From: an uncultured bacterium
GTDB taxonomy: Bacteria > Planctomycetota > Phycisphaerae > Phycisphaerales > SM1A02
Assembly (NCBI GenBank): GCA_903919715.1
Contig: CAIXJC010000015.1
Span: forward strand, 1 to 64,000
Direction of reading: 5' to 3'
DNA: 64,000 nt
Shown here piece by piece: positions 45,143-47,391 of this stretch. Numbering within the stretch: the stretch's first letter is position 1; each line of letters begins with the position of its first letter. The notes under the pieces are model-generated. The model saw nothing but the letters and a program-made list of their open reading frames with translations. It was not told the DNA's origin and ran no database searches. Both the position numbers and the translations under genes were made by a program.

Positions 45143-45364
45143 TTATTCGTCTTCTTCTTCCAACAGGATTTCGTGAAACACGACTTGGCCGGTTCGAAGT
45201 GTGCATGTGATGTATGGCTGACAAAGTTTGCACCCTCCACCGCACCCGAATTCGATTTGAACGTCACTCCGCGTGATGGGCTTTGGCTGAGTAATCGCCC
45301 AAGCCTTGATTGCTGCGAAAGTCGTCTCGTAGCAAACGCATCTGTCGATGTTGATGGGGGGCAT
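45143..45364 (-). CDS. BFD-like [2Fe-2S]-binding protein
   Basis: The 73-residue product has four cysteines in the bacterioferritin-associated-ferredoxin layout: RCVCYETTFAAI then FGCGGGCKLCQPYI, which bind one [2Fe-2S] cluster. The C-terminus is acidic. The ATG at 45364 sits 25 bases after the pseudopilin-like gene; a longer frame overlaps it. It could be the third gene of the riboswitch transcript or an unrelated small redox gene. Its partner is not known. Confidence 0.75.
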   Translation of the reverse strand: MPPINIDRCVCYETTFAAIKAWAITQPKPITRSDVQIEFGCGGGCKLCQPYITCTLRTGQVVFHEILLEEEDE

Positions 45365-45389
45365 GAGTTGTGTGGCCCTGAAACCTTTC

Positions 45390-46193
45390 CTATCTCGGGT
45401 CGTATGCAGAATCATCGTCGCTGAGAAAGCCATTTGCGGGCCATGCGAGGGGCGATGTCAGATATGTAAAAGACTGCCCAGAGTTTTCGAGCGCATGTAC
45501 GCCTTTGCATTGTTGGCATACGCCGTGAACATGCCCATCTAACCAAGCGACATTCGTGCATCCTTGATGGCGAAACGCTTGGGCGCCGGCGTACACGATG
45601 CCGAGATCCATCTCGACTGTTGCGCTGGGAGCCCGCATGAATTTGTTTGCGCCCGATTGCCAACCGCCATCACCGAAGAGTGCCGTTTCGGCGGGGCGAC
45701 GTTGTTGACTCATTGTCATTCCTCGCCGCGCATTCTGCCATCCGCTCAACACTCGACCATCGCTGCCGATCGTTGGCCACGCCCCTTCGGCTCCGATGAA
45801 CGTTGTGTTGTAGTTAAAGCCCGTGTAGGGGTCCGCGCCAAATGTGCTTGCTCCAACAAATGCGGGACATTGTTGGACTTCAAATGGATGATCTGTAAAT
45901 GACCAAAGCGGTCCAGGTTGCACATCGCCAGAAGGAGTATGGACGAAGTCCCAAGCCACCGTGCGAACACCCGATGGCGTTAACTCGAAAAGGACCGCTG
46001 GCGGAAAAACTTCGCGAAAGACATTCGCATACGACTGCGCAGCAATGGAAAGTTGGCGGAGCCTTGATGCGCATTCGCCGCTGCGGCTGCTCTCGCGAAC
46101 GCTCTTGATCCCCGGCACTGCAAGTGAAAGGAGCAGCGTGATAATCCCCATCGTGACAAGCATTTCAATCAGTGTGAATGCGCGTCGCAACAT
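45390..46193 (-). CDS. Type II pseudopilin/DUF1559-like exported protein
   Basis: The 267-residue protein has a prepilin leader (MLRRAFTLIEMLVTMGIITLLLSLAVP) with the usual Glu5 and an Ala where Gly is more common before the cleavage site. The rest is not a pilin body but a planctomycete H-x9-DG-type domain (VAWLDGHV near the end, GSDGRVLSGW, FGDGGW). The start at 46193 overlaps the upstream stop as TGATG; an ATG at 46205 would give four more residues. Such proteins are abundant in planctomycetes, and their function is not established. Coupling to the riboswitch-controlled gene suggests a shared surface role. Confidence 0.85.
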   Translation of the reverse strand: MLRRAFTLIEMLVTMGIITLLLSLAVPGIKSVRESSRSGECASRLRQLSIAAQSYANVFREVFPPAVLFELTPSGVRTVAWDFVHTPSGDVQPGPLWSFTDHPFEVQQCPAFVGASTFGADPYTGFNYNTTFIGAEGAWPTIGSDGRVLSGWQNARRGMTMSQQRRPAETALFGDGGWQSGANKFMRAPSATVEMDLGIVYAGAQAFRHQGCTNVAWLDGHVHGVCQQCKGVHALENSGQSFTYLTSPLAWPANGFLSDDDSAYDPR

Positions 46194-47113
46194 CAGATCG
46201 TCCATCCTGCGAGTACAGCCGCAAGATCCGAGCCGTCAACAAGCCCACTCTGGTTGATATCCGCTGCAGGGGAATCGGTTCCAAATGCGGAGAGGACGGC
46301 AGCAAGGTCAGCGCCATCTACGAATCCATTGTGGTCAATATCTGCGGCTGATCCAGTTGATCGAACACGTGCGACTGAATCGATTTCGACATTCGGATGG
46401 ATTCCTGATGGAACAAGTATTCGAACTGCGATGACTTCGGTCAATCCAACTGTTGCTAAATCGACTCCTGCGCCGCCAGCCGAACCTGCGTAGATCTCGA
46501 CGAGTTCGGCAAATGATTTCCCTGCGAGTGTTGCCGCAGTCCACGATGGATCGACTGGTTTGTTTGGGTCAGTCGCAATCGCGCCGACCGTTGGGGAATA
46601 TGGTGCCGCATCGACTGAGCCCATCGTCGGGAAAAGTCCATCGGCCAAAGTGTTCGCAACGGTAACCCATGTGATCCCATCCGCCGAAACTTGAATCGTT
46701 CCACCATCCCAAGCGAGAGCCGCGACCGTTCCGGTGGGATATGCGGCGTCTGTAAAAAACGAATTCCCAAAGACAATAAAGTCGATGCCGAAGGGATTAT
46801 TCGGTTGATTGCGTAGCGGGGGATCGAATGCAAGAGTCAGTTGCCCGCCGGCTCCAATCGACACGATCTCATCGTTGCTGAAACACGGATGGAATGGAGT
46901 CACGGCCCCAGGAGTAAATCCTTCCCCAGTCATTCGTTCCGGCGGTCCGAGCGCAACGAGTGGATTCGTAAAACCACTCGCAGGATTTGAACCTGGGACA
47001 TACGAAAGAACGGCGCTCGCAAAGTCGCTCGCGGTGGTGGTGGATGCGATCATCGCGATCGGCGCAATCACCACAATGACCAAATGAAATTTGATGCGCC
47101 GCATGATTCGCAT
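46193..47113 (-). CDS. Secreted protein with dockerin-like repeats, under B12 riboswitch
   Basis: The 306-residue protein has a signal peptide (basic MRRIKFHLVIVVIAPIAMIA). Next is a domain with VLSYVPGSNPASGF, VALGPPERM, IGAGGQLTLAFDPPL, IDFIVFGNSFFTDAAY, and a second half containing PSGIHPNVEIDSVARV. It ends in two dockerin-like calcium motifs (DIDHNGFVDGADLAAVLSAF, DINQSGLVDGSDLAAVLAGW). I do not recognise the middle domain securely; similar proteins are often labelled cell-surface proteins. ATGs at 47113 and 47104 are both possible. The cobalamin riboswitch directly upstream implies expression when B12 is scarce. Confidence 0.85.
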   Translation of the reverse strand: MRIMRRIKFHLVIVVIAPIAMIASTTTASDFASAVLSYVPGSNPASGFTNPLVALGPPERMTGEGFTPGAVTPFHPCFSNDEIVSIGAGGQLTLAFDPPLRNQPNNPFGIDFIVFGNSFFTDAAYPTGTVAALAWDGGTIQVSADGITWVTVANTLADGLFPTMGSVDAAPYSPTVGAIATDPNKPVDPSWTAATLAGKSFAELVEIYAGSAGGAGVDLATVGLTEVIAVRILVPSGIHPNVEIDSVARVRSTGSAADIDHNGFVDGADLAAVLSAFGTDSPAADINQSGLVDGSDLAAVLAGWTI

Positions 47114-47139
47114 GACGAGATGTGTGACGTCGGCGTGAC

Positions 47140-47391
47140 GCACCGTGTTCCCTAGTCGCGAGGGGACGGCGCAAAGTGATCGCAGGTCTTCCGACTTCGG
47201 GCGACCGAACCTGCCTTCCCAGATCTGCAATTGCAAGATCCAGTGGCGTCTCTGGTTCGGGCTGGGGAGGATGATCCTCCACCCGTTACGGCGGCGCGTC
47301 CGCGGCGGATTTTCACCGCCTTCCCTCGCAGAATGGGTGGCGCCAGCCAACCACGCTACGCCTCGGCTCACGAGTGCCGAGGATCAATCAC
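47140..47391 (-). promoter_or_regulatory. Cobalamin riboswitch
   Basis: Read on the minus strand, the RNA carries the conserved cobalamin aptamer parts in order: P1 GTGAT/ATCAC (47387-47391 and 47176-47180), a perfect P2-like hairpin CCTCGGC/GCCGAGG, GAGGGAA then CGGTGAAAATCC, GCCACTGG, GGGAAGGCAGG, and the B12 box AAGTCGGAAGACCTGC at 47182-47197. An expression-platform hairpin follows (GCGCCGT with ACGGTGC, inner CCCT with AGGG, 47140-47172), 27 bases before the start of the secreted gene. There is no T tract, so translational control is more likely than termination. Confidence 0.95.

Follow-up and report, generated by a model that had tools for sequence, protein, structure and literature searches.

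A cobalamin riboswitch operon of a planctomycete encoding a probable BtuH-type B12-capture protein and its pilin partner

A leader with a cobalamin riboswitch and the genes behind it form what is, in our judgement, quite probably an operon that serves to capture cobamides at the cell surface during B12 starvation. This operon lies on the minus strand of the window, that is, the whole stretch of 64,000 nucleotides that was analysed; its first gene encodes the exported protein that would do the capturing (SEC), and its second a prepilin-type protein (PIL). The original prediction for the first gene was a surface protein, produced under B12 scarcity and perhaps serving to bind or scavenge corrinoids. 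The riboswitch, the homology of SEC to the Bacteroides protein BtuH, and the riboswitch and btu contexts of its relatives make this view of SEC, a B12-capture surface protein under B12-riboswitch control, a well supported one at the level of sequence comparison and structural modelling.

The regulatory part of the operon agrees with what had been predicted, namely a cobalamin riboswitch in the leader, a B12 box at 47182-47197 and a platform hairpin. When the leader was run against the Rfam cobalamin covariance model with cmscan, a strong match to the RF00174 aptamer was obtained at 47164-47374 (minus strand), covering the full model (1-189) with a score of 70.3 bits (E 2.7e-15) against a gathering score of 31.5 bits, and the position of the B12 box is consistent with it. 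This aptamer is the one RF00174 match in the whole source genome (2.9 Mb, 94% complete). Folding of the leader together with its relatives places a P13-like hairpin with a UCGCG loop 3' of the aptamer, at 47140-47172 (minus strand), which is probably the expression platform. This loop and the aptamer L5 loop (GGACGCGCC) both contain a CGCG through which they can pair, a pairable CGCG is kept in the relatives, and the hairpin recurs in most of the 21 folded sequences with differing stem sequences. The energy z-scores of the P13 segments are unremarkable; the argument for this hairpin is that it recurs together with its loop, not that it folds with exceptional energy. No terminator-like site was found on the minus strand of the leader, and translational control is therefore the likelier mode.

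Riboswitch and SEC are conserved together. The riboswitch precedes SEC at 27 of the 28 testable planctomycete loci (L003-L031, with L018 left out because it lies at a contig end); the exception is L023, where none was found above threshold. SEC homologues span the order, and the riboswitch is also located upstream at loci from further families of it (L088-L090, L092 and L108). In Verrucomicrobiota, the phylum of a Kiritimatiellae genome, strong SEC homologues (E 1e-41 or better) are present in 8 of 145 genomes, and seven of these eight loci carry the riboswitch. SEC homologues thus do recur behind B12 riboswitches, in both phyla.

SEC itself (46193-47113, minus strand; 306 aa) is a BtuH-type protein with homologues in 56 of 61 relatives, some of them matched by the tail only. 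The predicted architecture of an exported protein with a beta-rich domain and a dockerin-like tail is present: a hydrophobic signal at the N-terminus, the domain at residues 28-252 (46358-47032, minus strand) and a C-terminal repeat at residues 253-306 (46196-46357, minus strand). The two dockerin-like motifs described at the outset are thus there as a repeat, with scores below the cut-offs of both Pfam Dockerin_1 (E 0.0037) and NCBIfam dockerin_GC (E 1.8e-5), and it is their meaning that had to be corrected. The tail matches NF041540 in 29 of 41 relatives, and the same repeat is found in dozens of open reading frames of the source genome; it is therefore a general tail of this genome and gives no hint of a cellulosome, and a role of SEC as a cellulosome component was set aside on this ground. 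The tail is probably a sorting or anchoring domain. Pfam and NCBIfam recognise the tail and leave the beta-rich domain without a family name. An identity with DUF4465/BtuJ was considered and rejected, as no Pfam DUF4465 match was obtained at E values up to 1. Separately, residues 104-151 show a weak NCBIfam match to the LIC_13355 lipoproteins of Leptospira (E 0.004; in 5 of 41 relatives), which from sequence might be another BtuH-like family.

The identity of the beta-rich domain comes from its predicted fold and from bridging sequences. The AlphaFold2 model, built with 41 sequences, has a pLDDT of 92. When the model was compared with the PDB by VIA-align, BtuH2 (7biz; Z 13.4 over 143 residues, rmsd 3.2) ranked first and BtuG1/H (8blw; Z 13.2 over 152 residues) second. 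PAPP-A came next at Z 9.8, and no CBM32 domain exceeded 9.4; in its core, the fold is like that of the large CBM32/discoidin group (Z 8-9.4). Foldseek returned a single match under E 0.001, which is again 8blw (E 2.1e-7). A direct search of the SEC domain profile against PDB sequences gave no match, and the homology to BtuH therefore rests on the fold and on the bridging sequences. The bridge is L108, a sequence of the same order, which matches 8blw at 1.9e-22, 7biz at 4.5e-19 and SEC at 4e-14; profile-profile comparison of SEC with relatives from the Bacteroidota phylum gave 99.9% (E 6e-32). By the modelled fold and this sequence bridge, we regard the domain as homologous to the B12-binding domain of BtuH2 and BtuG1H.

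The relatives in Bacteroidota are found within BtuB/propeller loci, and the search for homologues beside btuB genes that had been suggested at the outset thus gave a positive result. With a SEC profile derived exclusively from PVC sequences, matches were obtained in 21 of 148 genomes of this phylum, that of a MAG labelled Christiangramia. At 10 of the 11 loci fetched, the SEC homologue adjoins a TonB receptor and/or BtuG-like propellers (L165 being the exception), seven of the 11 carry a cobalamin riboswitch, and at one locus CobO follows the SEC homologue (PF02572, E 2.3e-46). Both of the Bacteroidota homologues scanned with Pfam (n=2) end in T9SS sorting tails. The SEC-type domain is thus found with a dockerin, a PEP-CTERM or a T9SS tail, all three of which, from their sequences, point to a place outside the cell. 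A separate observation is a truncated SEC frame with 56% identity to the window protein (L067:785-1063), located beside flavobacterial TonB genes on a 3.9 kb contig of the Christiangramia MAG; this contig is possibly chimeric or a contaminant.

Turning to the need for B12, CobS was absent in 15 of 15 genomes examined, and 10 of 14 control genomes were positive. With CobS, the synthesis gene searched, missing, these organisms probably need external cobamides, and the source planctomycete, judged by this marker, is apparently unable to make vitamin B12. It had been remarked that no gene for B12 transport or synthesis is visible nearby, and indeed, inspection of the larger open reading frames of the window turned up no recognisable btu, cob or cbi gene. 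Proteins which would use the vitamin are common: B12-binding domains (PF02310) are present in 21 of 21 relatives searched, and those of the source genome include a 1208-aa frame of MetH size. The source genome also encodes, side by side at G000:C80, a periplasmic binding protein, a FecCD permease and an ABC ATPase, a set which is BtuFCD-like in sequence, an assignment that is not unique.

The passage of cobamides through the outer membrane is the step with the strongest alternative: SEC may pass cobamides on to an ordinary TonB-dependent receptor whose gene lies at another place in the genome, in which case PIL would be incidental to transport. The operon has no gene for outer-membrane passage, the Bacteroidota homologues stand beside TonB receptors, and a single TonB receptor that could serve (1012 aa, G000:C22) is encoded in the source genome. 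However, this lone receptor is TonB-Xanth-Caul-like rather than BtuB-like and has no riboswitch. Moreover, no TonB barrel was detected in 10 SEC-carrying genomes, all within the 15 lacking CobS, and these include four at 98-100% completeness (G037, G042, G046 and G050); PF07715 was likewise absent in those of the ten that were searched for it. We consider such a handover possible but doubtful.

The second gene, PIL (45390-46193, minus strand; 267 aa), starts with an ATG at 46193 within the predicted TGATG overlap, and its description as a pseudopilin-like protein with a prepilin leader holds: the class III leader scores 21.8 bits against the N_methyl cut-off of 21.2, and PF07596/DUF1559 is also matched above cut-off. 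The protein carries the motifs GANKFMRAP and H-x9-DG, and its predicted model has a long N-terminal pilin helix (residues 2-58); in VIA-align, type IV pilins come closest to it in fold, with weak matches (best PilA4 with Z 5.8), and Foldseek gave no useful match. Considering that pilin-like genes occur by the dozen in planctomycete genomes (from 12 to 124 matches in each), the SEC-PIL linkage could be mere co-transcription of two envelope genes which answer to B12 for different reasons. Against this, PIL has one ortholog per genome, with E <1e-105 in most genomes of the same genus, and its next paralog matches at only about 1e-18 and at the N-terminus only. Its gene follows SEC immediately at nearly all planctomycete loci with sufficient flank and at 8 of 8 strong Verrucomicrobiota loci, the two frames usually overlapping or abutting. 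Mere co-transcription is thus rather improbable, and PIL, on these sequence relationships, is a distinct single-copy subfamily and apparently a dedicated partner of SEC.

The third gene (45143-45364, minus strand) encodes a small BFD-like [2Fe-2S] protein. The prediction of a BFD-type gene 25 bases after gene 2 stands for its position (ATG at 45364) and for its cysteine pattern, C-x-C-x33-C-x2-C in the translation, while the Pfam Fer2_BFD match (E 0.068, 14 bits) remains below the cut-off of 26. A BFD homologue adjoins PIL in about half of the related loci, a frequent companion and not a constant one. Other neighbours vary. MoeA and MoaD-like genes follow PIL in some relatives (L071:7493-9756, L076:7408-8864 and L106:7058-8496), a molybdopterin cluster that is apparently unrelated, and alpha/beta hydrolase genes also lie behind PIL in some relatives, again not constantly. 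In family f2, SEC and a diverged pilin are separated by a gene for a PQQ-type beta-propeller that has a dockerin-type tail (L089:7116-8543, G037); this propeller recalls the BtuG propellers of Bacteroides.

Another exported family without a Pfam name, here called 'WGYRW' (about 195 aa, with a VPxP or PEP-CTERM tail), was met in the course of the locus comparison. In many Phycisphaerales its genes stand alone behind their own cobalamin riboswitch. In Verrucomicrobiota, the family is found either ahead of SEC or joined to it in one protein, as at L068:1187-3343 of a Kiritimatiellae MAG, where the gene for a 'WGYRW'-SEC fusion stands between a cobalamin riboswitch and PIL. Further examples are L070:7422-8012, L037:1749-2333, L078:10253-11026, L104:3332-3985, L107:3358-3885, L077:6172-6846, L092:3541-4578 and L171:165-812. 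Searched against PDB sequences, the family gave no match; from its sequence contexts it is a candidate for a second B12-related surface protein. In the genus of the window, RF00174 matches below threshold lie directly before 'WGYRW' genes (L096:6081-6205, 24.8 bits; L098:6155-6283, 23.2 bits), and a second B12 riboswitch, too diverged to reach the Rfam threshold, may therefore exist in this genus.

Homology to a B12-binding domain raises the matter of binding by SEC. BtuH2 of B. theta binds B12 via its C-terminal domain and is required for efficient B12 transport and fitness; its Asn399 touches the B12 phosphate, and the neighbourhood of the phosphate is among the few conserved surface regions (PMC8941943). 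By comparison through L108 and by the family alignment, Asn399 corresponds to Asn117 of SEC (codon 46763-46765), which is invariant in all 41 aligned relatives. Phe401 corresponds to Phe119, which varies among relatives, Gln333 and Trp577 have no conservation in the SEC family, and the loops carrying His476, Tyr510 and Trp511 do not align with SEC at the sequence level; among the eight named contacts of BtuH2 (Asn399, Gln333, Phe401, His476, Tyr510, Trp511, Trp577 and Leu578), Asn399 is the only one invariant in the family. As most of the contacts are not conserved or not alignable, binding of a corrinoid by SEC, from sequence and model, is no more than likely.

The same residues leave room for the view that SEC belongs to the B12-starvation response without binding B12, having a structural or vesicle-release role like BtuL and reusing the BtuH fold. 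BtuL of B. theta is a riboswitch-controlled Btu lipoprotein that did not show B12 binding (PMC12751083), and regulation is therefore no proof of binding. However, the folds closest to SEC belong to the two B12-binding BtuH/BtuGH domains of solved structure and not to just any jelly roll, and the Asn that contacts the phosphate is invariant; we thus consider a non-binding SEC quite unlikely. Finally, a CBM32-like adhesin or glycan binder, induced in B12 scarcity for attachment to B12-supplying cells, would agree with the co-encoded pilin and with the CBM32 and other lectin domains that make up the bulk of the structural matches (Z 8-9.4), but it is very improbable, since the BtuH-type matches exceed the CBMs by about 4 Z units and since the Bacteroidota homologues lie within BtuB/propeller loci, once with CobO, where an adhesin is unexpected.

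For the B12-starvation operon that we favour, we propose the following sequence of events. When cytoplasmic B12 drops, the L5-P13 interaction would stay open and translation of the operon would rise. SEC would be exported and kept outside by its dockerin-type tail, and its BtuH-type domain would bind cobamides, chiefly via the corrin and the nucleotide loop, as suggested by homology. PIL would be a minor pilin or pseudopilin dedicated to SEC and produced along with it; speculatively, it may help to display or export SEC, or connect the captured cobamide with a machine resembling a type IV pilus. From the periplasm, the cobamide would probably be imported by the BtuF/C/D-like ABC transporter, whose genes lie away from the operon, and then be used by B12-binding enzymes, for example, the MetH-sized protein.

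The SEC-PIL pair, which is also found in relatives without the usual B12 receptor, may belong to a mode of B12 uptake that has gone unrecognised. A pilin-assisted, BtuB-independent route through the outer membrane is speculation. In its full form, a TonB-independent cobamide route in Planctomycetota and Verrucomicrobiota lacking BtuB, SEC would capture the cobamide and a pilus-like machine containing PIL would carry it through the outer membrane to BtuF, which we hold to be unlikely. Pili-like fibres of other planctomycetes bind dextran, and a role of such fibres in uptake has been proposed (PMC5394234). A link from PIL to a machine of this kind, speculative as it is, agrees with these fibres, with the missing TonB barrels and with the size limit of porins.

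These findings extend the BtuH-type domain to Planctomycetota and Verrucomicrobiota, in an operon with a pilin instead of BtuB, and a family without a Pfam name is identified, by sequence and model, as a probable B12 binder. Beyond the published lipid anchor, the same capture domain occurs with three surface-sorting tails, namely dockerin, PEP-CTERM and T9SS. A gap is exposed at the same time, as there are apparent B12 auxotrophs which have a riboswitch-controlled capture protein and BtuC-like permeases, and no detectable TonB receptor. Porins pass molecules of up to about 600 Da and cobalamin is larger than that; thus, how B12 enters these abundant aquatic bacteria becomes a concrete question. 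BtuH-type B12-binding proteins have been described from gut Bacteroidetes and a few Firmicutes. Our literature search found no paper linking BtuH to Planctomycetes, and none linking a cobalamin riboswitch to a B12-related pilin.

Among known systems, the closest to SEC are BtuH2 (BT_1956) and BtuG1/BtuGH (BT_1490) of B. theta (PDB 7biz and 8blw). They share with SEC the domain fold, the bridging homology and the Asn at the position of Asn399, and both they and SEC are exported and controlled by a cobalamin riboswitch. In contrast to them, SEC has neither the N-terminal Ig/PKD domain nor a propeller domain, it has a Sec signal and a dockerin tail with no evident lipobox instead of a lipid anchor, its operon contains a pilin and no btuB, and most contact residues differ. 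As no lipobox was found in the signal region, no PKD match with Pfam and no btuB neighbour, an assignment of SEC as a BtuH ortholog was rejected, and we call it a BtuH-type domain protein only. The T9SS-tailed BtuH-like proteins of Bacteroidota btuB loci (L156 and L157) are likewise exported, are related to SEC by the profile-profile match given above, and have a riboswitch/btu context and a C-terminal sorting tail; they differ in that this tail is Por_Secre_tail rather than dockerin, and in that a TonB receptor and propellers adjoin them and no pilin does. The B12 binders of the BtuJ/DUF4465 group, one of them from the planctomycete Mucisphaera, are like SEC exported, beta-rich and from B12-scavenging systems, but SEC is a different family by sequence. 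PIL, for its part, shares the prepilin leader, the PF07596 start and H-x9-DG with the H-x9-DG/DUF1559-type pseudopilins of Planctomycetes and Verrucomicrobia, and it differs from them as a single-copy GANKFMRAP subfamily of its own that is tied to SEC and the riboswitch.
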